In this document: one piece after another, positions 27,961 to 56,359 of the stretch
Numbering within the stretch: the stretch's first letter is position 1
Layout: every line of letters starts with the position of its first letter
Source: Isoetes taiwanensis
Taxonomy: Eukaryota > Streptophyta > Lycopodiopsida > Isoetales > Isoetaceae
Reading direction: 5' to 3'
Length of the DNA stretch: 64,000 bases
Assembly: GCA_021234155.1 (NCBI GenBank)
Contig: JAJEKV010000011.1
Span: forward strand, 16,010,441-16,074,440
Program-made: the position numbers and the translations under genes
Notes under the pieces: model-generated
The model's input: the letters and a program-made list of their open reading frames with translations, nothing else
What the model was told of the DNA's origin: nothing
The model's database searches: none

Positions 27961-30386
27961 CTAGTAATGGTGCCCAGCGTTGCTGGGCATAAGTTGGAAA
28001 TCTGTCTGGAGGGAAACATGTTCAGCTCAACTCCTTTTCATAAATCTTAGATAATAGAAATTAAGCCCAATGTTGCTGGGCTATAAGAGGTTTTTGTGCA
28101 CTCAAGTATTGTTTCCCTTTCTCTTTGCCTTTTGCTCTATCCCGCATTTCCCTTTTTCTTTCCTTTTTTCCCATTTTCCTACACATTTTCCTTTTTTTTT
28201 TCCCCTACACATTTTCTTTTTTTTTTTCCCCTACACATTTTCTTTTTTTTTTCCTTTTTCCTTTTCCCTTTTTCTTTTTACCCTGCTTTTCCCTTCCCTT
28301 CCCTTTTCACTTCCTGTTCTCCTTTTTCCCTTTCCCCTTTTTCTGACAGATTTTTTTTCCTTCCCTTCCATCCTTTCCCAGCTCTTCCCCTTTTTCCTGT
28401 ACCCTTTTTCCCTTTCCTTCCCCCCCTCCTGTTCCTTTTCTATTTCCCTTTTCCTATGCACTTTTTTCCCACCCTTGTTTATGTCCATTTTCTTCTTTTC
28501 CGCACCCTCTTCCCTTTTTCCTCGTGCCCCTTCTCCCTTCCTTTTCTTTTTTATTTTCCATTGTCCCATGCTCTTTTTCCCTTCACTTTTTCCTTTTTTC
28601 TCACCCTTCCTCTCTTCCTCTTTTCATGCCATTCTCCTCCTCTCTTTTTTCATTTCCCTCTTCCCCATTCCTCATGCACTTTTTTCCTTCCTTTTTTTCT
28701 ACCTTTTTCATGTGCCCATTTTCTTCTTTTTCGCACCCTCTTCTTTTTTTCCTCATGCCCCTTCTCCCTTTATTTTCTTCTTTTTTTCCCCTTATCCCAT
28801 GTTTTTTTCCCCTTCACTTTTTCATTTTTCTAACCCTTTCCTTCTTCCCCTTTTCATGCCCTGTCCCCCCTCTCTTTTCTCATTTCCCTCTTCCCCATTC
28901 CTCGTGCCCTTTTTCCCTTCCTTTTTTTCCTTTCCACCTCCCTTTTCTTTTTCCTTTCCCTTCCCTTTTCATCCTTTCCTCTCTTCCCGTGTCCTTTTTC
29001 ACTTTCTTCCCCCCTTTCCCTTTCCTTTTCATTTTCTCTTTCCTTTTCCCTTTTCCAATGCGGCGTCCCTTTTCCCGACCTTTTTCGCCTTCTCCATCCT
29101 CTTTCTCTTTTCCATGTGCTCGTCCCTCCTCTTTTTTTTCCTTTTTCTTTTCGCTTTTTCCATGCTCTTTTTCTCTTCCTTTTTTCCCTTTTCTCATATT
29201 TTCCTTTTTCCCCGTGCCCTTTTTCCCTTCCCCTTCCCATTTTCCATTTCCCTCTCCCCTTTTCCTCGTGCTCATTTTCCCTTCCCGTTTCCCCTTTCTG
29301 CATTCCTTTTTTTTTCCCTCCTCTTTCTCTTTTTGAATGCCCTTCTTCCCTTCTCTTCTCTACATCATTTTCCTCTTCCCATTTTTCGCTTCAATTTTCC
29401 TCCTTTCCATACCCTTTCCTCTTCCTCTTTTCCCATTGCCTTTTTTTCCTTCCCTTTGCTCCCTCCTCCCTTTCTTTTTCCCTTTTCCCATGCCACTTAT
29501 CCCTTCCGCACTACTTCATTCTTTCCCTTTTTCCCTCTTCCCCTGTTTCCCTTTTCCTCGTGTCTCTTTGCCTTTTCCTTTTCATCTTTTCACCCCCCTT
29601 TTTCTTTTTCCTTTCCCTAACCTCCCCCTTTTTCCCGTGCCCTTTTTTCTCTTTTCTCCCCTTCTTTCTTTTTCTTTTCTCTTTTCTTATCTTATCTTAT
29701 CTTCTTCCATTACACCGTTCCCTTTTCCCCACTTTTCCATGCGCTCATTTTCCTCCTTTCTCTATCCTCTTCTTCTTTTCCCTTTGAGCGTTCTCCCTCC
29801 CCTTTTTTTTTTCTTTTTACTTTTTCCATGCTCTTTTTTCCTTCCTTTTTCCCATTTTCTCAACCTTTTCCTTTTGCCCTTTTTCCCATGCCCTTTTTCC
29901 ATCTTCCTCTCCCCTTTTCCAAATGCCCATTCCCCTTCCCTTTTTCCCCTTCCGCGTTTCTTTTTCCTTCCCCTTTCGCTTTTCCAATGCCCCTTTTCCC
30001 TTCCCTTTTCCTCCTTTCCCCACTCTTTCCTCATTGCCCTTTCTTCCTTCCCATTCTTCTCTCCCCTCTTTGTTTTCTCTTTCTTTTTCCCTTTTCCCAT
30101 ACCACTTTTCCCTTTCCTCGCCATTTCCTTCTTCCCCCTTTTCCCATGCCCTTTTCCCCTCTTCCCCTTTCCCTCGTGCCTTTTTCCCTTCACTTTTCCT
30201 TTTTCATTTTCCCTTTTCCTTAATCTTTGATATTGCAATAAAATCATCACCGTCCAGCCAATCAAATCTACACCATTAGATTTAGGGCTTGATGGAAAAC
30301 GGACACACGCTAAAACATCAAATCTACACCATTAGATTTAGGGCTTGATGGAAAACGGACACACGCTAAAACATTATAATATAGGA
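27961..30386 (-). mobile_element. Helitron, non-autonomous, carrying a polypyrimidine tract
   Basis: On the minus strand it starts TCCTATATTATAATG (30386) and ends with the hairpin GCCCAGCAACGCTGGGC followed by CTAG (27961). The flanks are A (27960) and T (30387), the Helitron insertion pattern. Near the 5' end, a ~57-bp unit with TTTAGGGCTTGATGG is repeated twice (30262-30372). A second hairpin, AGCCCAATGTTGCTGGGCT, lies near 28063. Most of the interior is a pyrimidine tract (28100-30225). No Rep/helicase gene is present. Confidence 0.78.
28100..30225. repeat. 2.1-kb polypyrimidine minisatellite
   Basis: The plus strand is almost entirely C and T, built of variants of TTTTTCCCTTCCCTTTTCC broken by ATGC or GTGCCC every 40-60 bases. 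Stop codons are rare in pyrimidine-only DNA, so several long frames stay open on both strands: F/P/L/S-rich on plus and K/E/G/R-rich on minus. These are not genes. The sequence has strong potential for triplex (H-DNA) formation. Confidence 0.95.
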
Positions 30387-34148: not shown

Positions 34149-36172
34149 AGTCCAACCTCATCGGGCGGTGGACTTGGAAATACCATCACGGCCATCATCC
34201 CATGGAGAATACTCATATGATTCTCCTAGCTTGTATTCTAAATAGTTGGTATCAGGTTCATGGCTGGGTTCAATGTTCACACCATCTTCTTTAGCTTTAG
34301 CCTCGTCACGAACTGCCTTTTGGAATATGTTCCTTACCTTGAAAGGCATGGTCCTATGTAATGGCATCAAAAACCATATCAAACACAAGACGCAAGTTAT
34401 CCCACCAATGATAGTTGTTGCCATCATATTTGTTTGATACTTAAACAAGGATGGCAATACAACAAAGCCTGCTGCTATGAATGCCCCTACCACAACAGCA
34501 ATGGACAATGATAACAAGAAAGCAGCTATGAGTAAGCGACGTCGAATACTTAAGACGGTTGTGGCTATGTAGATGTTGCCTGTTGGTAGCACTGCGCCAG
34601 CCCCTGCTAGAACTGTTGAAATGGAAAAGAGAAATGAGAGACAATTGAAGACCCAGAACACTCTTATCCCTACATGTTTGGGATATTCTTGTTTTGTATT
34701 GTCGAGTGGAGTCTGGAGCCAGCCCGCAAACGTAACACTTGCAATTAGGGCTGCACCTACCAAGATAGCATTTGCTGCATCTACGTAGACCTGACGGTCC
34801 CTGTACAGCCCATCCACATACGATCTAACATCCTGCCTTTCCAACAACTCCTTCTTAATATCTATATGTCCCAACTCCGAGGCATAATGTAATGCAGTCT
34901 TTTTAGACTTGTCTTCCGCATTGGCTATAAGTTGCTTGCCAAACTTTCCCCTGCAGAGCTCAGATACAATTTTTTTGTCATTGAGCAACGTTGCATAATG
35001 CCATGGTGTCCATCCACTAATAGTTGTGGTTGTGGCATTATTTACAACGTCCTCCATTCCATGCACTTTGATGATGCTTTCGGCTACCTCAAATTGATGT
35101 TTATATAAAGCTACATAGAAAGGTGTCATATCGTCAATAAATTTCTCCATTTTATCTTTATCTTTGACGGTGGGAGAAACTATAGTATCCAGCTTTTTGT
35201 CTAATTCCTCAATTTTCAGTTCCACTTTGACGCTTCTTGCCCAGTTAATAAAATCTTGTTTGACCTTTTCAATAAACACCTTGTGTGTTGATTGGGAATT
35301 AAGCTTAATGTCAATGAATTTCTTTATAAACTCACAAGATGCCCTTTAGCACGAGCAAGGAGCAAAGGCGTTTTTCCTATAGCATCTTCTTTGAATAAGT
35401 CAATTTCGGTTTTCGCAAGTGCTTCAACCGAATTTTCATTTCCATTGACTGCAGCCCAATGCATGGGATTCCTGTCCTCTTTGTCCATGCGATTCACATG
35501 GGATTGTAAATTCTTTTTCTTATCTTGTTTGTTAGAGGCAATATGATTTTTGATCTGCAATAAGACCCATTCAATATCTTCTTTTCCGCCATAACCAGCT
35601 GCATAGTGAAGCAGCATAGTCGTAGGGGTAGCATCTTCGCTACGTTTAGTAGGCAGAACAAAGTCCTTAAGCTCTCTAAGGGCTGTAAATATAGACCCGA
35701 TGACAGAACTAGGACTATACTGACCAGTTCTACAGGGCATCAAATCCATGGGCAGTTTCTCCATTTTATTGGCAGCAAAATGTTGGCCTTTGCCTTGACA
35801 AGAGCATGTATGACCTCAGAGGATCCATTTCTGCAGGCCCAATGAAGCGGGGTATCTCCTTTTGCTGCATCAGTTTCATCCTTTTGCCACTCCACTGCTT
35901 CAGGGTGCCCATTCCAAGCAGCATAATGCAAGGAAGTCAATCCATCATCATTTTTACGGAAGGGAGTACATTTGAACGAGTCAAGGACATCTACATCTAC
36001 GCCACTTTCAACTAGGAATTGAACAGGGTCTAAGTGTCCTTTACCAGCAGCATGATGCAAGGGGGTTGAGTTCTTACCATTGCGAATATCTGCATTATGG
36101 CCACGTTAACCACCTGGCTGATATCGGATGGCCACATGGTTGGCCACATTAACCACATCTCGCTTGAGAATA

Positions 36173-36360
36173 TGTAGCATAATAACAGGGGATTTTCTTT
36201 GTGTTTTTGTACGCTTTTCACTAAGGTTTTCCTATGATTTCGTGATGTATTCAAATGGATGTACTAATGCGTACATCTAGAGTGCACCATTTCTGAGCCA
36301 TTGATTTTAGCCTTTTTTTTTTTCAATGCAACAACCAATGGCTCACAACAAAAGCCCTTT
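36173..36360 (+). repeat. Dispersed repeat, copy 2
   Basis: This matches 31031-31235 in the same orientation and runs directly into the 57-bp tandem repeat. It lies inside the presumed first long intron of the ankyrin gene. Confidence 0.8.
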
Positions 36361-36498
36361 TTTTGTGCGTGTGGTGCATAATGGTCAACAACCAATGGCT
36401 CACAACAAAAACACTCTTTTTGTGCGTGTGGTGCATAATGGTCAACAACCAATGGCTCACAACAAAAGCCCTCTTTTTGTGTGTGTGGTGCATAATAG
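36331..36498 (+). repeat. 57-bp tandem repeat, about 2.9 copies
   Basis: Units start at 36331, 36388 and 36445 with ACAACCAATGGCTCACAAC. The period is a multiple of three, so frames on both strands stay open (19-residue repeats). One related unit occurs at about 31199. There are no spacers, so this is not a CRISPR array. Confidence 0.9.
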
Positions 36499-36499
36499 G

Positions 36500-37332
36500 C
36501 ACATGAAGGGCTTGAAGGGCGCATGTAGTGCAGTTTCCCCGCCGGCAACACATTTCTTATCATAACTTTTGATCTAGAGCTCTGTTTGAGATGATTTTTA
36601 TTGCGTTGGAAAGCTCTCTCCGAGATCTTTTTGATAGTGTATGATATGGATATGTTTGGTTAAGTTATCTATGCTAAAACAGCAATTCTTCGGCCGGGTT
36701 TGGTAGGCTTTCACATCCTACCAGCTGATTAATACAGGATTGCGTTATTGGATATTGTTTTATGGCTCATTCCGAATGAAGATTGCAAAAAATTACCATG
36801 CATTTTTAGATTTTGAGGCAGTTATTAAGCAAATTCCAAGGCTTCTAGATCCTTGTGCTAACAAGCAGAAAAGTTTCCCACTTTGGGTTCTCACCACAAG
36901 AATCCATGGAGGTCAAAGGCTGCTGTTAAATTCCAGTTGAAAAATGTTTGTGTATGGGTGTTGCAAACTTTATGACTTTCAGAATAATGGGATCAATCCG
37001 CTCTATCTTTATGGTAACTTTTACTTATGTTCTATTTGTTTTATTGTGATGAAATTCAAAAGCTACAGGCGATGAAAGCCTCAAATGAATTCTAGTTTTT
37101 TTCTGGTTTGAATTCTAAAATTTTTGTCACACCGGGGGGGACGTCTCTAAGGCCCCGAAGGGGCCAATTTTTTTTTTTTTGCAACACAAACCATTAATAT
37201 CGAACATATAAAAAGTAAATCCCCAACACATAACAACCAATACATAACAACCATTGACATTAACAACCAACACATAACTACCATTGACATTAATTAACAC
37301 AACCATTGGGTCCAACACATTTAAATTAAAAT
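36500..37332. other. Intronic or intergenic DNA with a short minisatellite
   Basis: No gene is seen in the left half. GGCCCCGAAGGGGCC followed by an A/T run lies at 37143-37172. A minisatellite of ACATAACAACCAATACATAA-type units lies at about 37225-37300. Confidence 0.4.
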
Positions 37333-37562
37333 CCCCCTTAAACCCCCTTTGGTTTGGGTGCATATTCACACGGGGGTGACTTAGGGCAGCGAGAGCCTTC
37401 ATAATTGTATTTTGCACGTACAAAATCAACACCATATAGTATTCTGCTTGAAATCTTATAGTATTTTGCGAATCTTGTTATACAGTATAGCAAATTTTGT
37501 ACTTGCATACCCTACAAACGAGGAACTTTACGTACAGTGTAGATTAAGGAATAAGGGATGAA
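37333..37562. mobile_element. Long-TIR MITE, copy 2, lacking its right arm
   Basis: The left arm (CCCCCTTAAACCCCC, GGGTGCATATTCACACGG) and the central region match the MITE at 33839-34148. The match stops near 37562, where ankyrin coding sequence begins, so the right arm is missing. The minus-strand ankyrin frame runs out of the exon into this copy before reaching a stop. Confidence 0.8.
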
Positions 37563-38289: not shown

Positions 38290-38633
38290 CAGTTACCACT
38301 GGCCATGGTTAAATTCAACATTTAACATGTGCACAAAGTACAATGTAGCAACAGCTTGATAGAAGGAACTCGTAACAGGAGTAGGCATATCCGGCTGATA
38401 TTTAAAATATCCGGTTAGGTTACATAAAAAACTACAAATTTCTAGTTAAGTAAAATTCTAATCTGGAGGCCTGCTCAAGAATGGGTAACCATAAAATGCA
38501 TCAATTATTCTTAAATTCAACATTTAACATGTGCACAAAGTACAATGTAGTGAGGAATGGGTAAAATGCATCAATTATGTTTACTACACCAACTACATTA
38601 AGAGCCTCAAAGTCCTATTTAATTAAATTGAGA
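38290..38633. repeat. Rearranged pieces of the ~690-bp repeat unit
   Basis: Blocks such as AAATGCATCAATTATGTTTA, CACCAACTACATTAAGAGCC and AGCTTGATAGAA match the repeat arrays at 10794-11884 and 48690-50455. A 39-bp segment with TTCAACATTTAACATGTGCAC occurs twice (about 38315 and 38517). Confidence 0.65.
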
Positions 38634-39497
38634 CATGTATCTCACAAAGCTCTCGAAGACTGCAATGGCCTTTAGAGTATTTGCTCTAGGTTTCAAAGTG
38701 AGTGCATTACCATGTTGGAACAAAGTGTGCCCTTTTCTAACCTGCTCCCAGTATCTGTAAAATGAAGACTTGCTCACCCCAAGAATCCATCTCAATGCTC
38801 TCATACATACCTTCATTCCCCTCAATTGATATAGCAGCCGTCCTGTGTTTTCATCATAGCTGGAATTCCTACACAAGGAGTAAATGAAATTAATCCTATC
38901 TTTTTGAAGCTGTCCAATGTATTGGGACCTTATCTGCACGAGGTCATCCACATTGTAATGCACTGTGCAATCTAGGTTGCAACACTCTTGTCCCCTAATT
39001 GCCTCCAGGTTTTCTTTGGTTGGTGCCATACTTTCCATCCTTTCTAAATATTTGTCACTTCTAGGCCTCTTGGGCACCTTTGGCTGCCTTTTATGAAAGA
39101 CATAGCGTCTCTTCCTTGTGATCAAAGGATGCTCATCGACCACCAAATCTTCCACATGGCCTTGGGTGGGCCTTGGGGTGTGTAGTTCAAGGGGCATTCT
39201 AGAGTATCACCATTCTTGTGTGTAATAAATCTAATTGGCCATCTCAACTGAGCTTGGGACTCCAGCAGCCCTGTGCACACAATGCAATCACTAGAGCTTC
39301 CCTGGGACATGATAGTAACATCTCCCAGCCTCTCATCATTCACACTATCAAATGGATCAACTGCAGTTATTATGCCCTCTGCAAATACCGTCTGGTTGCA
39401 AGGGTGCAACAAAAGGCAACCCATCTTCCTCCATTGGAGCCTAGGGCAATGGCCTCCTTTGGAATTCCCTGGCTCCATTTTACTCATCTCACATGCT
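38619..39497 (-). pseudogene. Transposon-like ORF of unknown family
   Basis: An AG acceptor (TTTTTCATTCAG) at about 39500 opens a minus-strand frame beginning MSKMEPGNSKGG. It has a stretch resembling regions seen in plant transposon proteins (AEGIITAVDPFD...ERLGDV, then LRWPIRFI). It then shifts frame near 39200 into a basic segment (TRKRRYVFHKRQPKVPKRPR). A Cys-rich motif, ECCNLDCTVHYNVDDLVQIR, and a helix-turn-helix-like segment, VCMRALRWILGVSKSSFYRY, follow. Proteins with this Cys-rich plus VC..A...LG.S..SFYR layout look familiar from repeated families in seed-free plant genomes, but I cannot name the family. The stop at 38619 comes just where the ~690-bp repeat begins. It may be an exon pair or a frameshifted fragment; the catalytic domain is not seen. 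Confidence 0.45.
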
Positions 39498-39534
39498 CCC
39501 TGAATGAAAAAGCTCACATTAAAACCATATAGCC

Positions 39535-39800
39535 CCAAACACCACAAATATGACCATATGAACCATATAAAACCATACAAACCACACTCATATACAAACC
39601 ATACAACCATATAAAACCATACAAACCACACTCATATACAAACCATATACAAACCATACAACCATATTAACTAAAATCATACAACCACACTCATTCTAAA
39701 CCATATGTAAACATTGTAACCATTGAAACCATATTAAATACAACCATTGAAACCATATTAAATACAACCATTGAAACCTTATTAAATACATAAGCATATA
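39535..39800. repeat. Minisatellite, ACCATA(T/C)AAA-type units
   Basis: Repeated words such as AAACCATACAAACCACACTC, CATATACAAACCATA and ACCATTGAAACCATATTAAA form three blocks with periods of about 20-45 bp. Its translation gives W/F/Y-rich nonsense on the minus strand that extends the transposon-like ORF artificially. Confidence 0.85.
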
Positions 39801-39959
39801 ACCTACCCTTTCATATTTTGTCATGGCCACGTGGCGCCTCTTAAGAGGCTAAAACCGTACCACGTCAAGAATCCATCACCACGCCATGGAGGGCATGGCC
39901 CACACGTGACAATGGTTTTTATTATTGCACTTTTACGAGGTTCGAGGGTGCAGCCAGAA

Positions 39960-40392
39960 TTAACTGCACCCTCTTCCTCTCCCCCCGACCATTCTTCCTC
40001 CCCTGTTTTCTCTGATCTCTCTTCCTCTCCTGTTTCCTTTAGGCGCCCGCTTTACCGATCAGGCGATCGATCGAACCGAGCGATTCCAGCGCCATCTTAT
40101 GACAGCAGCTTGGTCGACGGATCGGGGCGCCTTCAGGCAATACCGTTCTCGCCAGATTCATTGTTGGCGGAGCGTTCTGCTTTGAGAAGAAAAAGTGAGG
40201 CCCTTTTTAGTGCTGCTTTTTAGTTTTCTGTAAGTCTTTTAGTGCATTTTTTCTTATATTCTGTTGTTAGAGGCTCTTATTAATCCCTGATACAATTTAC
40301 AGCCCGACAAATCCTTATTCACGCTTTGTCAACGACTATACCCACATGGAAGCGAACTCGGAAGCCTCCTCCTCATCCAGCAAATCTTCCAG
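39960..40392 (+). CDS. Candidate first exons of a plus-strand gene
   Basis: A CT-rich leader-like stretch (39965-40040) precedes a possible untranslated exon ending at AAAAA|GTGAGG (about 40190). An acceptor TTTACAG at about 40302 opens a second exon with ATG at 40346, encoding MEANSEASSSSSKSS. It ends at TCCAG|GTATGT (40392/40393). Splice signals and the serine-rich start look genuine, but no domain is present. It may be the 5' end of the degenerate gene at 43072-47449. This is inferred from splice motifs only. Confidence 0.3.
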
Positions 40393-41040
40393 GTATGTTT
40401 TTGTAATATCATACCCTTTTTTAATCTCATTTTTCTGTACTGTTCTCCACTTTTCTCTGTACTGTTCTCCACTGTTCTCTGTTTTCTCATTAATCTTATT
40501 AATCTTTGTATTGTTTTCTGTTTTTTGTTATCTTTTTCTTGCTTGTGGTTGAATTGAATACATTGTACATGCACAAGTGAGAATAGTGGTTATAGTAGCA
40601 AGCAACCGAGATAGAAATCATCAGAGACTGGTGTTAGGAAGTAAGATATTGCAGAGCATTAACAGAAAATAACTAGGAATGTCTTTCTCCCAGCAAGAAT
40701 TCAGAATAGGAATTGCTTCACAGAATCTCCATTTCTAACTCACAGCAAATCCACTGCAGGAGACATGCAGAAGGGAGTGGCGAGTTGAGAATACTTCAGC
40801 TTGCCAACAATCCAGGAAGTACAGGCCTTCTTCTCGACTCGCGAGTCGAGAACTTCTCGACTCGCGAGGCGAGAAGAGGGAGTGTACACTCGACCTGTTG
40901 GCGGTTGAGGGATTCTCGACTTCAAGCGATTCGGGATTGCACTGACTACCCAATGTCTTCACATTCTTTAGAACCTGGCTGCGGCCTTCTTCCGACTTTC
41001 GTGAGTCGAGAATGTGATACCCTACAATGGCTCTTTGTGC

Positions 41041-42190
41041 GTCGCCGGGTGCCTCCACCCGGTCACGAGCCACTCTCCTTCCGAACCATGCTCATCGAAT
41101 ATTGCGAAGAGGGCTGGCTCCGGCCGGGTGGAGGCCTCGGCGACTCAACAGCGGAGTGCTGGCGGCTTTCGACTTCGTGAGTGAGAAAAACGCACTCTAG
41201 TGCACTCTAGAGCTGGCTGGGAGCAGTCTCAACCACTCTCCTTCTATCTTCCTCGGACATGCGAAGAAGAAGTGGTTTGATTGTCTGCAGGCCAACTCTA
41301 GCAACCCAACTCTCTGTGTGTGGTGCTTGGCGGCCTCTACCCAATCAAAGACCGTCTCCTTCGAACCATCTTCGTCGAATATTGCGAAGGGGATGGGCTC
41401 TGATTGGGTGGAGGCCTCGGCGACTAACCACAGAGTTGCTGGCTGCTTTCTCGACTCGTGAGTCGAGAAAACGCAGGCTCTAGTGCACTCTAGAGCTGGC
41501 CTGCAGACAGTCTTAAACACTCTCCTTCTATCTTCCTCGGACATTGCGAAGGGAAGTGTTTTTGACTGTCTGCAGGCCAACTCTTAGCAACCCAATTCTC
41601 CTGTGTGTGGTCGCAGTGGCCTCTACCCAATCAAAGACCGTCTCCTTCGAACCTTCTTCGTCGAATATTGCGAAGGGGATGGGCTCTGATTGGGTGGAGG
41701 CCTCTACAACTAACCACAGGGAAACCACAGAGCTTGCTGTATGCATTCTCGGCTCGCGAGTCGGGAATGCCTTACCCAACCGGCACTCCATGTGTACTAA
41801 CCGGAGTTCTGGCTGGCTAAGGCATTCTCGACTTGCGAGTCGAGAATGTAGACAGGAAGCCAAGCATTCTCGACTCGCAAGTCGAGAATCCCTTAGCCAG
41901 CCAATTCTCACAGTAATGCGGTAGCGGTGGCCTCGACCCGTCGAGTCACTCTCCTTGAACCATCTTCGTCGAATATTGCGAAGGGGAGGGGCTCTGACTG
42001 GGTGGAGGCCTCTACAACTAACCACAGGGAAACCACGAGGGAAGCCAAGGCTTGCATTCTCTACAAATGCTTGCACTTTCTATTCTGTTTTAGTCCCAAG
42101 TGCCTCTAGCCTTGCCCTGCGAGCCACTCTCCTTGAACCATCTTCCTCGAATATTGCGAAGAGGAGTGGTTCTGACAGAGGTGGAGGCCC
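41041..42190. repeat. Array of seven long stem-loops with a shared loop
   Basis: The stem-loops lie at 41041-41144, 41209-41299, 41312-41435, 41492-41584, 41600-41720, 41935-42013 and 42101-42190. Arms are about 35-50 bp; for example, 41492 pairs with 41584 through GGCCTGCAGACAGTC, and 41312 with 41435 through ACCCAATCA. Stem sequences differ among units, while the apical part keeps CTCTCCTT and a TCGAATATTGCGAAG or TCGGACATTGCGAAG core. There are two loop types. ORFs on both strands here are products of the repeats. Function is unknown. Confidence 0.85.
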
Positions 42191-42495
42191 CTCCGACTAA
42201 CTACAAGAGGATGCATTTGAACCGCATCTCCCCGGGCCTTAGTCCTAGCCCGATCTATGTACAACATTCCAAGTAAACAGTCCATGAAGAAACACACCTA
42301 AAACGGAATCTGTTCTTTACCCCGATCCAATGTTTCCTTGCCGAGCATCTCTCAACCTAGAGAGTAAATCATCTCTCGAAGCTAAAAAATCTTTGGACAA
42401 GGAAACATCAATCCGTCGAGCTTATCGGCAGCTTCCATTATTTAAACACATACGGCATGTTCTACAAGCGAAATAACATAGGCATCTCTGAAACT

Positions 42496-42727
42496 CACCT
42501 CTTCAGCGGTAATTCCTTGGGCCCTTTGTATGGCGGATCCATGACCTCACCCGAGTCTTTGCTTCTTCTCACGGGTCTCTTCAAGAGTGTATTAGCATCT
42601 AATACTTGTATCATCTGCGATTCTCGCGTATCCCCTTTCCATGGCGCCCGATGTAGAGTTCCGTGTTCCGGCAGCTCCTCTCCGCTTCCTACCTTAGCTC
42701 CGTGCTCATCGATCAAATCAACTGCTT
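42496..42727 (-). CDS. Possible single exon, unknown protein
   Basis: On the minus strand an AG acceptor (CCTATTGCAAGCAG) opens a 230-bp frame encoding VDLIDEHGAKVGSGEELPEH and ending in DPPYKGPKELPLK. It is followed at once by a consensus donor, GAG|GTGAGTTT. The start resembles the N-terminal segment of the ankyrin protein at 38060 (DAISEHGLVVELPEH), a weak similarity. No other exon of this gene was identified. It lies antisense to the candidate plus-strand gene. Confidence 0.35.
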
Positions 42728-44439
42728 GCAATAGGACGCGCGGTCAGGAAAAACACACATATGCAAGGCGCTGTTAGCAGCTTACCGCGTCGCGGCGCCA
42801 TTCCGGAAGTCGCTAACAGTCGATGATCCCCTCCGACCTCGAGGTCCCCAATGCCGCAGGGAAGATAAACTACGCTCCACTCACTTAGTCCCTTGATGTG
42901 ATTAAATTTCGAAATAGTGTTTGGGCGGGCTAAAGCCGACCGTGCTGTACCCTTAGCCCGCTTCTTTTCATAAATGATTGCATGTCCTTAAGTTCAAACT
43001 AAAGAACACGCCCGATCTTTTTTACATGCAGTCCTAAAACTCACAACCCGCGGAGGAAACTTAATTTACAGAGGGGTGCGAAGAGGATGAGAGGGCATAT
43101 AGACATGACTCCGTCTAAGAAGCGGGCTCGTGGAGGAGGATGCTTCTACCAAATGGCAAGAAGAAGAAGAAAAAAACCCGGGTGAGCTCGAGGTTTTTCT
43201 TTTGTCGGAATACCTTAACTCGATCCATCCTTTCTTCTTGCAAAGATTCACCTCGGACTCACTGGTGATCACTGGCCGAACTCCATTCTTCGTCATCGAG
43301 GGACTGGAGACAGAGCTTCTTGAAACAGCGGCAGATTCTTGGTGGTATGTCGAGGTATCGACAAGTGGGAAGGAGAAAGATCTGTTTCTACACCAAAGGG
43401 ACAAGAAGAGCTCCGGAGACAAGTACAAGAAAATCGGTGTTGTGCTCTCCGTCTCTGCGCCAGATTCGAAGCATTTAACACTACATGTCGAGGACTGCCA
43501 GAAGAGTAAGTTCTATCGCACCAAAAAATTAGCGCTTTCAAATTATTCTCACTCTTCCATGAGCAAGGCTAAGGGTACCGAAAAAGGCCGGCGCTTTTAA
43601 ATTGTCGAAACCTTGGGTGGAAGGATCTGGAAGGGATGAAGGAGGCCGAACCCTAACATCCGGGGAGCTTGGTATGGAGATTTCCAGTCGGGGAAAAACT
43701 GCTCAATACGGGAGCTTCACTTCTACTTGTCTTTGAAGACTCTACAACACTCTGCGCAGGTGGGGAATGTAGTTGTGGTTCATTCACAAAAAGTCCACCA
43801 AAAACAAAGATGGGGATGATGACACCACACGGGAGGAATCGGATGACCGAAGGAGACGAAGATATGGTCGACTCCCCAAACCTCGATCCGATGATCGATC
43901 AGGATTTCACGAGAGAGGGCACGAAAAATGGAGCGTCTAGCTCAAGGTATTATCCGTTGGGAATATCACACAAGCTGCCTGCTGGACATTAGACGGTGAA
44001 GGTTTGCCGCGGGAGATCTTGTCTTGTTCAACCACGGGGAATTTAATCCGGACACATGCCGGAGATTCTCAAACTGATGGTGCGACATCCCGCTGCATCC
44101 AATGCTGCGGATGTCATACCTTTTAGCGGATCGGCCGGTGAGTTGTTCACCGGAAGTCCGAGGAAGATCTGAAGGGAAAAAGAAGTCCGGTTACGGGTTG
44201 TAGGCGGTCGGCGATTCGGTGAGGGCGGCTCAAGTATTGCGCAGACGGAGAAGGAGGTGCCGCAAAGGATCAAGGATAGATATGCCAGCGAGAGTCAGAG
44301 TTCTTTAAGCGGAGACGCCAAAGAACCGAACCGCCAAAGCATTAGCCAACGCGGTAACACAATAGCGGCCGAGTGCCGCCTACGTAAGGTAAATAACTCT
44401 CGAATCTTTCCATTCTCGACTTCGCGAAGTCGAGAAAGC

Positions 44440-44802
44440 CCCGCCATCCTAACGTTGCCGATTATCATCGGGGTTTCTCGACTCGCCGAGTCGAGAAAGC
44501 CGTGAGTAACCACGAAAAATCAAATGATGTGGAGCTTTCTCGACTTCGCGAGTCGAGAAAACCTTAGCCGATAAAAGAAAATTAGACATTCAAAGGGACT
44601 TTCGACTCGCCCGTCGAAAAGCCCCCGCCATCCTAACATTTGCCGATTATCATCGGGGTTTTCGACTTCGCGAGTCGAAAGCCGTGGTAATGCGAAAAAT
44701 CAAAGGATCGCGAGCTTTCTCGACTTCGCGAAATCGAAAACCCGCAGAAGTAAAAGAAAATTAGACATTCAAGGGACTTTCTCGACTTCATGAGTCGAGA
44801 AA
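44440..44802 (+). repeat. Tandem duplication of ~180 bp inside an intron
   Basis: Two units share CCCGCCATCCTAAC, TTGCCGATTATCATCGGGG and AAGAAAATTAGACATTCAA in the same order. Each carries three palindromes. The palindromes of the second unit hold more mismatches (for example a missing GA) than those of the first. Confidence 0.85.
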
Positions 44803-46799
44803 ACCCGGCTACTATTTTGTTTATTCCGGTGTTTGTAGATACTTTCATGCTCGACATTGGTACATTGTCCGAATGCACCCTTATCGACGAGATCATACAC
44901 GCTAGGCAACAATGGAAAGCATTGGGTTGTCCTCGGCCCTAAAGGAAACGGGGCTCCCTGGATAAGTGGAAGACCTTTGAGAAACTATGCGATGTATGTT
45001 ACTGAGGGGGAGGAAGATGACGAGGGAGAGGAAGAAGAGGAGAAGAAGAAGAGAACACCAAGGAAAGGCGGGGAGTCTCTCTCGACCAATATGACCTCAT
45101 TCTTAGCACCGAGGCGGTCCGGGAGAAATGGACCCGACATATGGGCTCAATGGACAAGAGGCAAGGCCGAAGGACGACAATGGAGAATTTCCAAGCGTGC
45201 CGGACCCCAAGTTGTTTGACAAGCGGTTCATGAAGAGGATACTGAGGGGCCTCACCGGACAAAGAAACGCTTTGACCTACAAGGCAAAATCTTGGAGGGA
45301 ACAATCCTGGCGAGGAAGACCGGGAGTTCTAAATTGCGGGGCGCAAAGGATTATGCCACGATCCCTAAAGCGGCGGCGTCGTTAGAAAGAAGGCATCACG
45401 GAGTTCTGCAACGTTGCATCTAATGAATACCATGATTTTGATTATTACAAGGAAAAGGCTGCCCTTGATGAGGAAGACATGAAGGAATTGAACCGTCTAT
45501 GTCAACCCTACATCAACACCAAGCTGAAGCGTAACGTCAAAACCCTTCCTTTCCCTGAACGTGCTATGGCAATTCTGAAAAGGAAGCTTGGATTCGGGGT
45601 GGTCCCATTTAAGGCAGACGATAGCTCCCCCCCATTTCTGGTTACTTTGGGACACAAGGGATTTGGTGGTCTGGAACTGGCACCTGGACCCGTGGCACTA
45701 TTTGCCATCAATATGATCGAAGACCCCACCCTTTTTTATGACAAAGCTGACATAGAGCAGTGGGTACAAGGCGATGTCACGGACATGACCGACACGGATA
45801 CTTTCGGTTTCCTTGTCTTTTGCATGCCGGGCAATCAAACAACTCGCTTGCTCCCCAATGGGCAGCTGATATTAACTTCACCAACAAGATCATGCACTCC
45901 ATATCTGAACTTGATCATGAGTGCGGACTTGGCTTTGCCGAAGGCACCAAGCTTTGCCAACATAGTTTTGGTTTTGATTTCAAGATCTCGGCGGTCGACT
46001 GGATAAGTGGTGGTCTAGCGAGCATCATTATCTCGACAAGTTCATGATCTCTCAAGAGCGTATGGAACCCTGGAAGGGGGGCAGGTTTATGGAGGATGTT
46101 CCATCGATGGACAAGGTCAGCAAAGATGGTGCGACCGGTCCTATACATAGAATTCCTATCCGCCAAGAGTTATCAAGTACTTCATAACCCGGCTTTGGTC
46201 GAGGAAGATCAAATTGTATGAAAGTGGTACATGAATGGCCTGTTCTCTCGGGGGCTATCTTTTTTGGAATGAAACCTATATCCGTGGTTGGAAATAAGGA
46301 CATGGTTGAAACCATTCAGTCATACCTGGATCTGCTTCATGAGCATTTCAAGGGGAGGAAGACAAATGGAAGCAGTAAAGACGACGAGGACGAGGGAGAC
46401 AAACCTGACGGAGACGAGGATGTCGAAGGTTTGGACCAGAATGCTGCCGAAAACATTATTGAAAACCTGAGATTGAGGTGAGTTTACTTTGCTCTATCGG
46501 TGTTTCTCGACTCGCGAGTCGAGAAAACTCGTTTCCTTTCAATACCTTTTCTTTTCATTCTCGACTCGCGAGTCGAAAAACTCGTTCCTTTCTCGGCGGA
46601 TGTCATCATTTCAGGGAATTCCAGCTCAACGACTCCGGATCATTGTCAATGGATTCCAACGGTTCACGTCGCGAGGAGAATGAGAATGAAAATCCAGAGC
46701 AAGACACTGCTCACAGCCAGAAGGAACCTGAAAAGATAATGATCCCGCATTTGGATCCCGATGAACCGGAAATATGGTAAGAGCCAAACTCCAACTGGG

Positions 46800-47449
46800 A
46801 TCCAGCTGGTCCCACCAAGCTTGTAATATTTGACGTCAATGGAGTATTAGCTGCGGTATACCACGACAAAGACGTCCCTCGAGATTAACACCTCGCATCC
46901 CGGTGAAAACAGAGCATAAAATAGTGTATCCGAGGCCTAGAGCTAAGGAAATTATTGACCGGTGCCCGCACGGGATTCGGTGGGCATATGGTCTTGTATG
47001 GCAAAAGAAAAATATTGTCAATGTTCTTGGTGTTCTCGGCATTTCAGTTTTGAAGTTCAAGTTCGTTTGGGGAAACGAAAGGGTCGAAAGCATGTGAAGG
47101 ACCTCGATCCAGCCATCACAAAGGGAAGCCTATAATGGTGAAAAGGCCGGGCCGGGTTTATGAGCTATTCGGGACTATGGCAAACACAACCGCGGCGATC
47201 ATAGACGACTCCGCCTACAAGTGCTATCATAACGCCGCAAAAATACAATCATTGCTAAGCCATATCGACTGAAGAATATGAGACGGATAGGTGGTTGTCC
47301 TTCGGACTCTGTCTGCCTTGGCGGAATCCTCTTCGCCATTCTTGTCGCCGATGTGCTTACGAACTATCCGAGCCTCACGGAACCCGATCCGAGAGCAAGC
47401 CGATCATGAAAGCTATGGACGACAAATACTTTGGTGAACAAGAAGAGTG
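46800..47449 (+). pseudogene. HAD-superfamily (FCP1/NIF-like) phosphatase domain
   Basis: KLVIFDVNGVLAAVYHDKDV carries motif I with D-x-N, as in the plant FCP1-homology group that has LDLNGLL. Next come VYPRPRAKEIIDRC and RWAYGLVWQKKNIVNVLGVL, matching 'RP...FL..C...F..G.WSS...KNV..V'. AAIIDDSAYKCYHN holds the second catalytic acid pair (DDS..K). The end, KPIMKAMDDKYFGEQEE, follows after further frame changes. Family members are C-terminal-domain-type phosphatases or non-catalytic relatives in the nucleus. Premature stops at 46780 and 46887 and frameshifts near 47040, 47110 and 47275 break this copy. Confidence 0.6.
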
Positions 47450-47879
47450 ACCCCCGCTTCGGATAGTCAAATTGTGTGAATATTGTAATCGAGCGTGAAC
47501 ACATGTATTGACCATTTTGTAATGAATATACTTGTATATTGAGTTTTCGATGCCTTTCGACTCACGAGTGAAAAGGCATGCTTGTCGTGTTGATGAAATG
47601 CTTGTACAATCTATTATGATAATGCTTGTACATTGGGTTTCCTGGGCCTTTCTCGACTCGCGAGTCGAGAAAGGCATGCTGGTTTTCTCGTTGACGAAAG
47701 CATTTGTATGCTTCCGTGTGTGATTGAATGCAACCATATTCTAATGAGTATGGTTGTACTTTGATTTTTACGGGCCTTTCTCGACTCGCGAGTCGAGAAA
47801 GACACTACTTCCCACGTCATTGGATGCAGTTGTATGGAATGAATGTTCTCCGTTGTAATTTGATTTCAACGTTCTTTTC

Positions 47880-48650
47880 TTCGTTTTGACTAATGACACC
47901 GTAATTGTTAATCATACTCTCCTTGCTCCGGGTGGTTCGAGCCTGCATCCGACACCGGCCCGCGATCCCGCCGGGCATCACGAGACCGCTCCAGCGGCGG
48001 ATCCCGCTCAAAGGCGGAAGAAATACCGGATTACGCACGGATCCCGGTCCGCGCTACACTCTTGCCCTACCTTTGGGACAAGGTTGCTTTCGCGAATCGA
48101 GAGGTTGCTCGCTACACCACGGGGATAAAGAAACGGCGAAGAACAAAGAGACGATCCGGCAAGCTCAAAGCATCTTGCAAGCATTGCATAACATCCACGG
48201 AGGGTGGGGTGGAGCATATTCGATGAAAGGTCATGGGAGGCGAGTGGAGAAGTCGGGTGGGCGGCGGCGGTAGCTCGAGAGGCACCTCCACGATCGGCAT
48301 TCCACACTCTTGGGTTGCCCCCAAGGCTTCTGAGGCGGCATGAAGAAGCGCCACAAGTTAATCCCCTAAGGTGGACCACCTACCAAGATGATGTAACTGT
48401 AGTGACAGCAAGACCACCATGGTCTCTGCGTCCGATGTAAAATACATTGTATCTGTTCAATTTATTAATAAAAATTCTTTTTCAACTAGATCTTTGGTTT
48501 CAAACTTTAATGAATTTCCTTTGTTTCAGTTGCATTGTTTTTGTTCTCGACTCGCGAACCTGGGAAAACTGGAGCAAAGCTCGGATTCAGAGTTTTATTC
48601 AAAAATTCGAATTTAGGATAGTTTTCGGGCCGGGGTGCTACTTTTTATGT
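47880..48650 (+). other. GC-rich stretch with coding-like but broken frames
   Basis: Overlapping frames (47886-48128, 47905-48273, 48204-48440) give pieces such as NHTLLAPGGSSLHPTPARD and QAQSILQALHNIHGGWGG. No domain is recognised. A degraded CTCGACTCGCGA half-palindrome lies at about 48546. The stretch ends where the AT-rich repeat array begins, near 48690. Confidence 0.35.
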
Positions 48651-48689
48651 AAATTAACCGGGTTCCGAAAAAAAATGGGAATGGAATGA

Positions 48690-50455
48690 GTCCCACTTTA
48701 ATTAAATACGACTTCTCACGTACCCACATAAATTTGCAGCCCAAATTGTACAAAAGCAAGTAGGTAGCACATAAGGGACTTGAAAGGTTACTTTAGGCAT
48801 TTGGACACAAATTGTTCATTAAATTATTTGTACTACCAATACATTATTCTAAGATAAGATAAGATAAGATAAATTTTTATGTCCACGGGAACCCAACGGG
48901 TTATGGGACATGCAATTGAATGGGTCCACACATTGAGTTGCGGTAAGACATCACGATAATTTGATTAATATAAGTCCTGCAATTCTGTCACAAGTCCATT
49001 TAATGGGGCCAACTATTAAGTCAGGCCTTATTCGTACCATATACGGCACAAATTCTGCACTTTTCAATTACCAAACATATCAACAAAAATACAATCATTA
49101 TGAATTGTTCATGTGCATAGAGAATCGTCCAAGCAAACCAAACATGAACACTAAATCAATGAAAATTCAGAGCAACAACTCAGAGTGTTGTTTGGAAGCA
49201 TGTGCAAAATTTATGTCCGAACCATATGGACATTTAGTCTATTGATCTGAGATATTATAAACAACCCAGCCAAGTCAAGTCATTCATTTTGGATTGTTTA
49301 TACGCACACATATAACCTTCCAAACAAACCATGCACGAAAATTAAATCAATGAAAACTCAAAGTACAATACAAACATGTTCGAAGCATGTGCACAATTTA
49401 TTCCTCTAACAATGTGCATCAATTATGTTTACTACACCAACTACATTAAGAGCCTTACGTACTCACATAAATTTGCAGCCCAAATTGTAATAAACCAAGT
49501 AGGTAGCACATAAGGGACTTGAAAGGTTACTTTAGGCATTTGGACACAAATTGTTCATTAAATTATTTGTACTACCAATACATTATTCTAAGAGAGCACA
49601 TGCAATTGAATGGGTCCACACATTGAGTTGCGGTTAGACATCACGATAATTTGATTAATATAAGTCCTGCAATTCTGTCACAAGTCCATTTAATGGGGCC
49701 AACTATTAAGTCAGGCCTTATTCGTGCCATATACGGCACAAATTCTGCACTTTTCAATTACCAAACATATCAACAAAAATACAATCATTATGGATTGTTC
49801 ATGTGCATAGAAAATCGTCCAAGCAAACCAAGCATGAACACTAAATCAATGAAAATTCAGAGCAACAACTCAGAGTGTTGTTTGGAAGCATGTGCAAAAT
49901 TTATGTCCGTACCATAAGGACATTTAGTCTATTGATCCGAGATATTATAAACAACCCAGCCAAGTCAAATCATTCATTTTGGATTGTTTATACGCACACA
50001 TATAACCTTCCAAACAAACCATGCACGAAAATTAAATCAATGAAAGCTCAAAGTACAATACAAACATGTTCAAAGCATGTGCACAATTTATTCCTCTAAC
50101 AATGTGCATAATAGACTATTATTGCTAAGTCCTGCAGTTCTGTCACAAATCCATTTAATGAGGCCAACTATTAAGTTAAGCCTTATTTGTGCCATATACG
50201 GCACAAATTCTGCACTTTTCAATTACCAAACATATCAACAAAAACACAGTCATTATGGATTGTTCATGTGCATAGAACCGTCCAAGCAAACCAAGCATGA
50301 ACACTAAATCAATAAAAATTCAGAGCAACAACTTAGAGTGTGTTGTTTGGAAGCATGTGCAAATTTATGTCCGTGCCATATGCACATTTAGTCTATTGAT
50401 CCGAGATATCATAAACAACCCAGCCGAGTCAAGACATTCATTAATCACTACAAGA
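48690..50455. repeat. Tandem array of a ~690-bp unit
   Basis: Two full units (start points 48717 and 49455) and a partial third (from about 50130) share blocks such as AATTTGCAGCCCAAATTGTA, GGTAGCACATAAGGGACTTG and AACCATGCACGAAAATTAAA. The third unit has an internal deletion. ORFs at 48961, 49651 and 50077 are the same frame in each unit but match no protein I know. The array runs up to the left end of CACTA copy 2. Confidence 0.9.
48853..48907 (-). mobile_element. Minimal LINE 3' end (about 55 bp) with AAGAT tail
   Basis: The first array unit has an extra segment compared with the second. It consists of four AAGAT-type pentamers followed by TTTTTATGTCCACGGGAACC and GGTTATGGGA. This matches the 3' end of the LINE at 12353. 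It is a strongly 5'-truncated insertion of the same LINE family, with a different pentamer tail. Confidence 0.7.
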
Positions 50456-51288
50456 ATATAGGGGGGTCTGTAACACCCCTATTGTAACGCAATTGTAATT
50501 TGTAACGCTTACGCATTTGAAATGCATTATAAGCTATAAAATTAGGCTTTTGAAATGAGTTACTAAAGTGGCAATTTGAAATGCATTACAATATCCTTGA
50601 TACGCATTTCAACAGTTATTTGAAACGCATTTCAAGGGATTTCAAACTCCAATTGTGATATCCGTTACAATAATGTTGATCTGCGTTGCAAACTTTATTT
50701 GAAACGGGACGTCTGAAATGCATTACAAAGCATATTTGATATGCGTTTCAATCATGACCATTGAAATGTGTTTCAAACCCTTAATTTAATTAATATGAAT
50801 GAAATTTGGGCCACGTACTGTATTTTAACTTCATCGAATCTCCCTCCAAATCTGGCGCAGGAAGAGAAGTCGGTGGCGGAGAGACCTAACAACCCTTTCA
50901 TGTTCTTGACAAACCGGTTGGCCGCTTCTACAATAGAATCGATTCTACAAGGAGGTATTCTGCTTCAGATCCTTAGGTTTTTTTCATTGCTTGCTTTGCT
51001 GGTTAGGTTTTTCCCTTTCTTTACTTTAAATTTGTTTAAAACTTCAGTGGCGACGGCAGAGCTTCTAACTCAGTTCGTATTTTTTTAAGCTCTTATACAG
51101 CACTGCCATAGGAAGGACGCAAAATACTTTTACTACAACAGATTTAGGTTTTGTTGTAGCTTTCTTTTGCAAAATTTTCTTCTAGAACTCATCTTAATCT
51201 AAATCTTTCTTCTAGAACTCGACCTAATATAACACAGACCAAAGATATTTTGTCAACGCTTATTTGAATAATATGGTTTCTTGGTTTC

Positions 51289-54200
51289 TTTTTTTTTTTA
51301 ATTGAAGGCCGATGTATATATTATATATAAATAAAGTTACAAAAATTTACTTTTTACAGGGAAGTATAACCCATTTTACTCATATAAAAGGAGAGTTTTT
51401 TAAGAAGGAAAGAGACAGTTAATTCATGAAATTTCGACTTCCTCTGAGATAATCCAGTTCTGTTATAGATTGCACGGATCAGCAAACTAGAAGGGGGGTT
51501 TGAGATGGAAATTGGTGATTTTCCGACCCTTTCCCCTGACCATGATTGTGAGGATGCAAAAAGCACACAGGCAGGATTCTGCTTTGGCCATGTTGAACCT
51601 TCCTCTGTTATCTTTGGCCCCGCATAGAAGAGCTCTTCTGATATCATAGTTCTGGTCACAGCAGCAGTTACATGAACAGGGTTCTTCATGCCCATACAGG
51701 TTCGGGGGGCCGAAAACTTTGAGCCACTCCATGTTGGTGTTGGGATCAATTCTCCTCCATTTGATCTTCCGCACCAGCACAAATATGATCCCTGAAATGG
51801 AAGAATAAACCATAAGCAAAAATCAAGAGGCTGCATTAATCCAATTAATATCATATGTAATCTGCTTGATAACAGTTTTCGGGTGAATAATCTCATGATT
51901 GAAGATGAACGCATTGCGCCCTTTCCAGATCCTCCATAACAAAATAAAGATCCTCCAGTCATTCGGGGCATGAAGAAGTCCAAAGAATTTATAGATAGGA
52001 CATTGTAGCCACGAAGGTTGGAGGCTAAATCCAACATCCATTCTGACCAAATACAGCTCCTAAAGAGATGATTTTCATCTTCTTTTTGCTCTAAACACCT
52101 AGGACATACATCTGAGTCGGACATTTGCATTTTATATCTTTTACTGTTCGTTGCCAGGGCCTTATGCCATAACTGCCACATGAAGGACTTGATTTTGGGG
52201 TAAATAGGGCTTGACCACATGAACTTTAGGTTCCTCTCGCATCTATCTGCCCCTGTTTGCCATTTGTCATGGATAGATATAGTAAGACCCCTCATGAGGA
52301 ACCTATAAGCCATTCTGACTGATAAAACCGTCTTCCCGTGATAGTTCCAATTACATTCATTATTGGACCATATTTCTTGAAGCAAGGTGGTGCAGATATT
52401 GTTATAGAGGAACTCGCATGCCTCTCCTTCTTCGGCAAGAATTGAGTCCCTAAAGGGGATAATTCCATTCTCATTGTACAGATCCTTGATCAGAATGATT
52501 CCTTTGGTACTCCAGAGCTTGGCCTGATCTGGAAAATGACAAGCTAAATATAAAGATGGATTATTAGTAAGAATAGCAGGATTCCAGAAAATAGACTGGT
52601 CCATGGATAGCCCTTCCTTCCAATCGAGGACTCCCCTAACCGAATTCCAGACCTTGATCCACTTCTTGATAAGGGCCGGAGTAGATCTTGGGACCGTGAA
52701 AGGGAAATAAATAGAATGGGGAAGAACTACCTTTAACTACCTCCAACCAAAAGACCAACATTTTATAAGATAATGTCTAATGATGATTGAAATCGGATGC
52801 TTAATCAAATTATGGGCAGCTTTAAAGAAGTACTTGGCTGCAAGAGCTAGGCCCTGCTTCTCAATATTTATAACACCTAGACCTCCATCCTTTTTCCGTT
52901 TGCAACATTCTGACATGGCAACTGGGGTCCAGTATCTTCTATTCTGGCCACAGGAAATGAACCTGCCAATAATACTCTGCAATTTATTAGATACCTTCTT
53001 AGGGGCAAGGATCACCGAGGATTGATAGACATGAGATGAAGAGATAACAGAGTTTGCAATAATTGCCCTTCCCTGCTTGGAAATATATTTGGAATTAAGG
53101 TTATCTACCTTTTTTGGGAACTTCTCAATAATCTCTGTTCATATATCAGAGGGGCTCCCTTTTAAAGCATTTATAAGGGATACCAAGAATTTTAGAGGAA
53201 TTGGTTGGAAGAATATACTTACAGCCTAGGAGATCAGCTGTGTATTCCCCTTTTACCTGGTCCTTGGACATAACCTTTGACTTGATAGGATTAATTTTGC
53301 AGCCAGAAGCAGTGCCAAAGTTCTCCAGAATCCTTTGGGTGTTAATGATCGACTGATTATCCATGGATACGAGGATGAAGGTGTCATCTGCAAAATGTCC
53401 ATTCAAAATTTGATCCATTCCTTCATCATTCTTAGGAAGGCTTAATCCTTGGATCAGGTTAGAGTTTTTGGCATCCTCTAATTTACAGTGAAGAGCCTCC
53501 ATGATAATGAGAAAGAGAAAAGGGGCCAAAGGGCAGCCTTGTTTAACTCCTCTTTTCAGAGGGAAAAAAGGGCTGCATTCCCCATTGATAAGCACCGAAG
53601 ACCTCGAATTAGCAAGAGTAGCTCTAAAGATAAGAATTACCTCATTGGAGAAACCCATGGCATTACAGCACTTAAGTAGAAAGTTCCAACTTACAGTATC
53701 AAATGCTTTGGTGATGTCCAGCTTGATTAGAGCAATATCCTGGTTGGAGTCTTTTGCCCAGTTGAGGCCCAGAATGGCTGTGACCACGTTGTCTAAGATA
53801 AACCTATCCTTAAGGTATGCAGCCTGGGATGAGCTAATAATTCTGTCCAGCACAGGTTTGAGCCTTCTAGCAATGGTACCCGAGATTAGCTTGTAGACCA
53901 CATTGGAGAGAGATATTGGTCTATAATCTGAGAAAGATTCTGGCATGTCCACTTTAGGGATGAGAGTTATAAGACGTGTGTTGATTCTGGCATCCAAACA
54001 AATCTTATCTCTGAATTCATTGGCCATGCTTGTAATACACTCCTCAAGAATAGGCCATGCTTTTAGGAAGAATTCAACTGGTGGCCCATCTGGCCCTGGA
54101 GTCTTACCCTTGTCCATATCTCAGGCTGTGAGAAGAAGTTCAGCATTGGTGAAGGGTCTGTCCAGGGAAGCATTGTCTTCAACTGTAACTTTTGGTTGTA

Positions 54201-55493: not shown

Positions 55494-56359
55494 TGGTTTC
55501 TTGGTTTCATTTCTTGCAAGTTCCACTTTTATTTTATGTATTTGTAGAAGCTGGTTACCATCGTTTTATCTTGCATGTGTAACATTTTGCAGAGTGCTCT
55601 TTTATGCTATCAATTCTTGGTAACTTATTCTCTGCTTTCGTTATAGTTTAAAGCACCAAGTTTCCTTGGCTTTCTTTCTGGCCAATACATTTCTTAACAA
55701 ATGAACTTCTCATTGATTTTACTGTTTGCAGGTGAATATCATATGCAGAATGATGGCTTATTAGCAACTTAAACTATATTTCGGAATAAAGTTAATTTAT
55801 TCTTGAAAGCAGAATCTTCTCTTTTTGCAGTTATTATGATTTTCTTTTGGATGATTTTCTTTTGGATGCTATATTTGGAATTTGGCAGTTTTGTGATTTT
55901 TTTTTTTTGATGCTATATATGGAATGTTGTGAACAACTAGATTGTGAGATTGGTCTCAAAGAGGATTAGTCTTGGAAATATGGTTGGGGTTCAAATCCCC
56001 ACATTCAAATTTTGACTGTTCAAATAACTATTAAAGTAGAGTAGCATAATGCTGGTTGTGCTACGTGGGTCTGATATATTATTAAAAGTACTAGTCCAAT
56101 GTGCAAATTGATGCCTGGAAATTGTTGCCACATGGCAGTCTAACATGTCATTAGAGTGAATGATACACCATTTTTTTGTTACAACAACTTCTTGACACGT
56201 TCAATTTAAAAGAAAGTTAAATAACTCAAATAAATAAACAAATACACTTGAAATGCGTTTCAAAATTGAAATGCATTGCTAATTGATTTCTATTGAAACG
56301 TATTTCATATTTGCAACTCGTTTCATATTTGTTACTAAGGTAGGTATTTTCTTCTAGTG

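Follow-up and report, generated by a model that had tools for sequence, protein, structure and literature searches.

The window analysed here (64,000 nucleotides of Isoetes taiwanensis DNA) contains an array of long hairpins, which is almost certainly an internal array of a transposon. A short palindrome, CTCGACTCGCGAGTCGAG, is a family tag that is repeated through the noncoding parts of this element. Related elements with a DUF7869 gene carry palindromes of their own, and across the four sampled families the type of tag follows the DUF7869 phylogeny. We lean towards the view that these tags are docking sites for a sequence-specific DNA-binding protein which is encoded by the element itself.

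The hairpin array and the enclosing transposon

The array comprises seven near-tandem units (41041-42205) with two interspersed loop types, as the sequence-only reading had described. From left to right, the loops are of type A, B, A, B, A, A and A. The A-type loop, TCGAATATTGCGAAG, is present in five units (loop starts at 41095, 41375, 41661, 41969 and 42147). The B-type loop, GGACAT(T)GCGAAG, is present in the other two (41492-41585 and 41215-41300). Fold strength is given as an RNA-fold z-score relative to dinucleotide shuffles.

41041-41148, + strand: hairpin unit 1, A-type loop (z -8.1)
41215-41300, + strand: hairpin unit 2, B-type loop with a one-base loop deletion (z -2.9)
41320-41433, + strand: hairpin unit 3, A-type loop (z -7.7)
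41492-41585, + strand: hairpin unit 4, B-type loop (z -11.4)
41605-41719, + strand: hairpin unit 5, A-type loop (z -8.5)
41915-42030, + strand: hairpin unit 6, A-type loop (z -3.3)
42095-42205, + strand: hairpin unit 7, A-type loop, weak pairing in this copy (z -1.6)
41732-41860, no strand: long inverted repeat around two tag palindromes (58-nt arms, z -14.4)

The expectation that each unit folds holds for four units with strong and two with moderate z-scores, but unit 7 is unconvincing in this copy (an equally good fold was obtained in 13 of 200 shuffles). The described alternation of hairpins and palindromes is real, with shorter palindromes between and around the units. These palindromes extend well past the stretch 41041-42190 that had drawn attention, out to 48.6 kb, which had gone unnoticed. 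An Rfam search of the window returned no family at the gathering score, and a tRNA search found none. The A-loop word has 2,273 genomic sites with at most one mismatch, compared with 66 for its reversed control (1,658,258,908 bases in 1,110 contigs were searched).

Stem pairing was compared across 86 units from 28 scanned sources (73 A-type and 13 B-type; none removed). The collection excluded any unit that had indels in the loop word or lay too near the end of a locus, and unit 2 of the window was thus missed. The pairing of A-type stems is maintained across copies: 84.2% of the stem cells pair in register, compared with 44-54% when one arm is slid by 1-3 columns and a maximum of 82.2% in 300 shuffles. 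Cells changed on both sides number 63 (27-46 when slid, at most 36 in shuffles), a count that is inflated by kinship among the copies. Any double change is seen in 13 of 31 base pairs, which does not exceed the number for slid arms (12-15), and pairing is lost in 339 of 2,140 cells (16%). Thus, pairing is kept, while the case for stem covariation is modest, and the covariation check that had been proposed is borne out for double-change cells but not for the pairs that show them. The 13 B-type units show no excess over shuffles (84.3% paired, shuffle maximum 84.6%; 14 doubles, shuffle maximum 15), so the statement that the stems vary yet stay complementary applies to the A type but not to the B type. 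As to the conserved apical core that had been pointed out, loop conservation in the collection arises partly by construction because units were gathered by their loop. Maintained pairing does not separate an RNA function from a DNA function.

The array is enclosed by a transposon copy with terminal inverted repeats (TIRs) and a target-site duplication (TSD):

38610-48714, + strand: probable Sola-type DNA transposon copy, 10,105 bp (TIRs, TSD, two empty sites)
38606-38609, no strand: target-site duplication CTCA, left (comparison of the ends with empty sites)
48715-48718, no strand: target-site duplication CTCA, right (comparison of the ends with empty sites)
38610-38634, + strand: left TIR, diverged
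48690-48714, - strand: right TIR (25 bp identical to the left TIR of the C1075 copy)
43657-47272, + strand: right-hand gene, broken into frames

The two empty sites are paralogous repeats within the window, which are gapless across the junction (identities 104/110 and 94/99). When 40400-48720 was used as the query, long copies were retrieved at 86-93% identity and array-side pieces down to 79%; most of the long matches stop at window positions 48714-48716, a few earlier. The homology extends leftward in copies from five other contigs. Three of these five have an intact left end, which has a 25-bp inverted repeat in common with the right end. The C1075 copy, whose two ends are identical over 25 bp, spans 12,340 bp, and its homology begins at window position 38624. 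A 4-bp target duplication was found in all four copies that were read at both ends (ATAC, TTAC, CGGG and, in the window copy, CTCA). The termini of the window copy read AAGTC.

In the C1075 copy, a stop-to-stop frame of 571 aa includes a DUF7869 domain (E 2.7e-35). The window copy is devoid of the left ~2.2 kb, which is the part that holds this frame in C1075. Because its ends and TSD are intact, it probably moved in trans, or the frame was lost later. A Pfam scan of one frame from the C1047 copy (L004:6210-6833) gave no DUF7869 match. Genome-wide, there are 9,907 first-look candidates for DUF7869, and all 150 scored matches are above the cut-off. In the window copy, the array is located between the remains of a leftward DUF7869 gene and the rightward gene, at a distance of about 2.4 kb to the left TIR and 6.5 kb to the right TIR.

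CACTA elements have CACTA-type termini and a 3-bp TSD, Mutator-type elements have a 9-bp TSD, and VANDAL transposons are Mutator-like, a class differing from that of the element described here. An assignment to CACTA (En/Spm) was rejected, there being no CACTA-type match at either element end, together with the AAGTC ends and the 4-bp TSD. The 4-bp TSD and DUF7869 likewise exclude a Mutator-type element (such as VANDAL). The earlier guess of a foldback family was right about transposon membership but not about the type, since this is an internal noncoding array of a TIR element of 10-12 kb. TIRs and a short TSD might also have pointed to ordinary MITEs. Both were found, but on a copy of 10,105 bp with a 12,340-bp relative that has coding frames. 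MITE and foldback identity are thus discarded, the element being neither short nor mainly inverted repeat and having protein-coding relatives. We consider the Sola type probable, and regard the link between DUF7869 and the Sola1 transposase as putative. Sola elements make 4-bp duplications and are seemingly uncommon in flowering plants (PMC10741241, in excerpt). The terms "Sola" and "DNA transposon" are both missing from the main texts of two Isoetes genome papers. The rbcL protein of the genome aligns over its full length with Rubisco large chains of known structure and resembles that of a seedless land plant. The I. taiwanensis assembly was built from Nanopore reads with polishing (PMC8566536, in excerpt), and assembly errors may therefore account for some of the broken frames and small indels.

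Other features were observed elsewhere in the window. CACTA-like elements are located at 9012-10793 and 50446-56359 (ends CACTACAAGAAT and CACTAGAAGAAA; their extents are inferred from the ends), and they have an 852-column match in common at 93% identity. The region 28000-30000 is an almost pure pyrimidine strand (GC skew -0.77, AT skew -0.75) with degenerate CCCTTTT-type tandem repeats. A repeat of 1.2-1.4 kb at 36170-37560 has 40 scored copies at 94-97% identity and possibly represents a recently active family.

Family-specific palindromes

The tag CTCGACTCGCGAGTCGAG has 7,950 genomic sites with at most one mismatch, compared with 0 for the reversed control. Ten palindromes of the form TTCTCGACTCGCGAGTCGAGAA occur in the window with at most three mismatches in the 18-bp core (shuffle mean 0), and all ten fall between 40.8 and 47.8 kb. 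The tag features, none of which is assigned a strand, are as follows (intron borders around tags are inferred from GT/AG signals and frame):

40831-40875: two tag palindromes, TTCTCGACTCGCGAGTCGAGAA and a one-mismatch copy
41448-41469: tag palindrome
41746-41767: tag palindrome
41825-41846: tag palindrome
41867-41888: tag palindrome
44413-44805: six tag palindromes or degenerate versions (D8, D10), probable intron
46503-46582: two tag palindromes, probable intron
47649-47802: two tag palindromes, 3' of the right-hand gene

Loci centred on tags and on loops were retrieved from the genome. Among 13 tag-centred loci, six match the terminal/3' region of the window element and seven match by tags alone, assignments that rest on the six longest matches per locus. 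Two loci that represent the left parts of window-family copies (L001 and L003) have no exactly repeated palindromic 14-mer; L001 has seven tags with at most one mismatch. Among seven loop-centred loci, four have long matches to the window family, while three (L027, L029 and L031) match in the hairpins only. These three have window-type hairpins together with a different palindrome, ATGGCGCCATGGCGCCAT, which has 2,359 genomic sites with at most one mismatch (reversed control: 1). This sister group keeps the hairpins of the window family and swaps the tag. The hairpin apex is constant and the tag between hairpins differs, which points to an array with two layers, the hairpin being conserved and the tag specific to the family.

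Ten 10-kb loci around DUF7869 matches were surveyed, which were hand-picked down the list of 150 rather than drawn at random. All ten contain a repeated palindromic 14-mer, and four different palindromes are found: GTATGAATTCATAC in two loci, GTATAAATTTATAC in three, GTATTCCGGAATAC in three and CTATGCGCGCATAG in two. A second repeated palindrome is also present in L038. The table of tags by loci is near block-diagonal, with the counts falling on the cognate tag, except that two GAATTC loci also have AAATTT-like sites. Exact genomic matches to two of the surveyed tags number 3,720 and 1,551 (0 for each when reversed). Outside the element, the other 53.9 kb of the window are free of all six tags. 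Slices outside elements contain no repeated palindromic 12-mer apart from AT runs and one word; this word was found 8 times in the 8 right-end loci, where element sequence is still present.

In the DUF7869 tree (11 proteins; columns present in fewer than 10 of the 11 were removed, with 304 of 1,194 kept), the four tag classes correspond to clades with support 0.99-1.0. The GAATTC and AAATTT classes group together (support 0.87), and their tags differ by one base per half-site. DUF7869 identity is 77-97% within a tag class, and 23-26% between the window family and the rest. The ten loci effectively represent four families, so the agreement between tag and tree could be plain descent, at least in part.

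Tags are underrepresented in open reading frames of at least 150 aa (17 of 94, 39.9 expected). Of these 17, 14 belong to the AAATTT family, and all nine tags of L036 and L038 are within frames. We suspect that the stop-to-stop frames of the AAATTT family run into upstream noncoding DNA.

Five intergenic stretches were compared for inverted repeats. The locus L037, which has 26 tag copies, contains a 119-nt inverted repeat (97% complementary) between divergent genes (L037:4108-4406), and this consists largely of GTATAAATTTATAC tags. Long inverted repeats are also found in L039 (82 nt, 83%) and L043 (65 nt, 80%), while L034 and L042 have inverted repeats of only about 20 nt. The array of the window is placed in the same way as that of L037, between the leftward DUF7869 gene remains and the rightward gene. 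Searches of the open-licence literature, outside which most subscription journals lie, gave no earlier description of palindromes specific to families of DUF7869 or ParB-methyltransferase transposons.

Partner genes of DUF7869

In some families, the rightward gene codes for a PF01555 N6/N4 DNA methyltransferase (E 2e-15 in L037, 2.7e-16 in L040). Genome-wide, there are 1,444 first-look candidates for PF01555, and all 150 scored matches are above the cut-off. For 24 of these 150, one of the 150 listed DUF7869 matches lies no more than 15 kb away. In a control with shifted positions, the mean was 0.42 and the maximum 3, values which are somewhat low because the control ignores contig ends. The linked pairs are divergent in 22 cases, convergent in one and on the same strand in one. 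At least 22 relatives thus have a divergent DNA-methyltransferase gene. The methyltransferase exons of five loci (L044-L048) contain what we take to be the catalytic motif (ADLPYGF or ADIPYGF, four of five) and the cofactor motif (DAFSGSGTT, five of five).

No methyltransferase was found in the tested frames of the window family, and methylation therefore cannot be the general reason for the tags. In a tblastn search, the right-hand gene of the window showed no remote homology to the right-hand genes of other families. Part of the right-hand gene in L067 matches NIF phosphatase below the cut-off (E 0.038).

The stretch upstream of the methyltransferase (YVLGGTHSYKARKEL in L034) is possibly ParB-like. 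L040 has a sub-threshold match to TIGR03764 (E 0.041), and a longer frame in a window-family copy (L064) has a sub-threshold ParB-like match to phrog_1033 (E 0.03). Profile-profile comparison of the ParB-like parts from two lineages gave a probability of 5% (E 0.0077). Structure models of these parts are poor (pLDDT 42 and 34). A PDB fold search with the pLDDT-42 model yielded nothing at E 0.001 or better, and a PDB sequence search with the A1 profile gave chance-level matches only.

A possible self-addressing system

If the tags are docking sites, their most likely reader would be the protein encoded by the right-hand gene, which is possibly ParB-like and would bind as a symmetric dimer. The dense local tags would recruit this reader protein, together with its methyltransferase where present, to the noncoding DNA of the element itself. 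The recruited protein may mark the element or keep silencing off. As families diverge, tag and reader would change in concert. Within this inverted-repeat array, the long hairpins might form a second layer that is more conserved and acts as DNA or as RNA. The full form of this proposal is that each family's ParB-like protein (or ParB-like methyltransferase) reads its own palindrome and either writes a base mark of bacterial type (6mA or 4mC) or blocks silencing, in a lock-and-key co-evolution. In this full form, the proposal is tentative, and we would put it at about one in three.

The agreement between tag type and the DUF7869 tree could also be expected if the palindromes and hairpins were sites at which the DUF7869 transposase binds or carries out strand transfer, comparable to subterminal repeats, with a role in excision and not in chromatin. 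The window copy, which keeps intact ends and a TSD although its DUF7869 frame is missing, is consistent with this. However, the array is internal (at about 2.4 kb and 6.5 kb from the left and right TIR), and tags are also found in intergenic regions and probable introns, not only near the ends, so that we consider this unlikely. Copying without any function might also produce palindromes, if short inverted repeats were spread inside elements by template switching or slippage. The strong growth of arrays (as in L037) and the formation of long inverted repeats are what slippage would yield. It would not account for the paucity of tags in reading frames, for the clade-specific tag identity with its symmetric change per half-site between GAATTC and AAATTT, or for the recurrence of tags in several separate segments of one element. 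We therefore give the reading as functionless by-products only a small chance.

The deep folds in four of the seven units and the complementary arms across the 73 A-type units also fit hairpins that act as RNA, either as small-RNA precursors or as structured RNA in transcripts of the element. The tags, however, are DNA palindromes and thus symmetric on both strands. They differ between groups while the hairpin apex stays constant, for which RNA is not needed. There are also no Rfam matches, and covariation is modest, with 16% of the cells broken, no excess of double-change pairs and a B type that does not exceed shuffles. An RNA role of the hairpins is therefore rather improbable.

Three known systems invite comparison with the proposed docking sites. 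In Ectocarpus, the element Sola1-1_Ec32 has a ParB-like plus N4/N6 methyltransferase gene opposite the transposase. Its authors suggest that proteins of this kind may bind to their own transposon and modify it, and they cite cases from green and red algae (PMC12477816, in excerpt). The elements described here are likewise large and probably of Sola type, with relatives that have a methyltransferase gene divergent from the DUF7869 gene. They differ by their host, a vascular plant and not an alga, and by the dispersed palindrome of each sampled family, a candidate recognition site; such sites are not mentioned for Sola1-1_Ec32 in the excerpt of that paper. What appears to be new here are the family-specific tags, the pairing of methyltransferase and transposase being already described for Ectocarpus Sola1 in the same excerpt.

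VANC proteins bind motifs which have accumulated in the noncoding parts of VANDAL transposons and which differ between families (excerpts of PMC5735166 and PMC10398659). The tags resemble these motifs in being short and family-specific, in their location in introns, intergenic and terminal noncoding DNA and apparently in changing with the cognate protein (PMC5735166, in excerpt), as well as in their growth by tandem repetition (both excerpts). Unlike the tags, the VANC motifs printed in the excerpt of PMC5735166 are non-palindromic and have a single orientation. Unlike the methyltransferase-bearing families, VANDAL/VANC systems are described without mention of a methyltransferase in the excerpts of PMC5735166 and PMC10398659. 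N4CMT from bdelloid rotifers is also a PF01555 amino-methyltransferase in a eukaryotic nuclear genome, and it marks transposons. It differs, however, in being the product of a captured gene with a chromodomain that is linked to silencing (PMC8885841, in excerpt), while the methyltransferase genes found here adjoin DUF7869 genes inside elements.

The self-binding proposed for the algal ParB-methyltransferases had no named target (PMC12477816, in excerpt), and the palindromes supply a concrete and readable candidate. Since family-specific palindromes are linked to such genes in a sequenced plant, binding, methylation and specificity switching are directly testable. If the proposal is true, thousands of tag sites from several families would coexist without cross-talk, and restriction-modification specificity would have its counterpart in a eukaryote. 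The VANC principle, in which an element-coded protein is paired with an amplified noncoding motif, would also gain a second and independent case, here with palindromic words.
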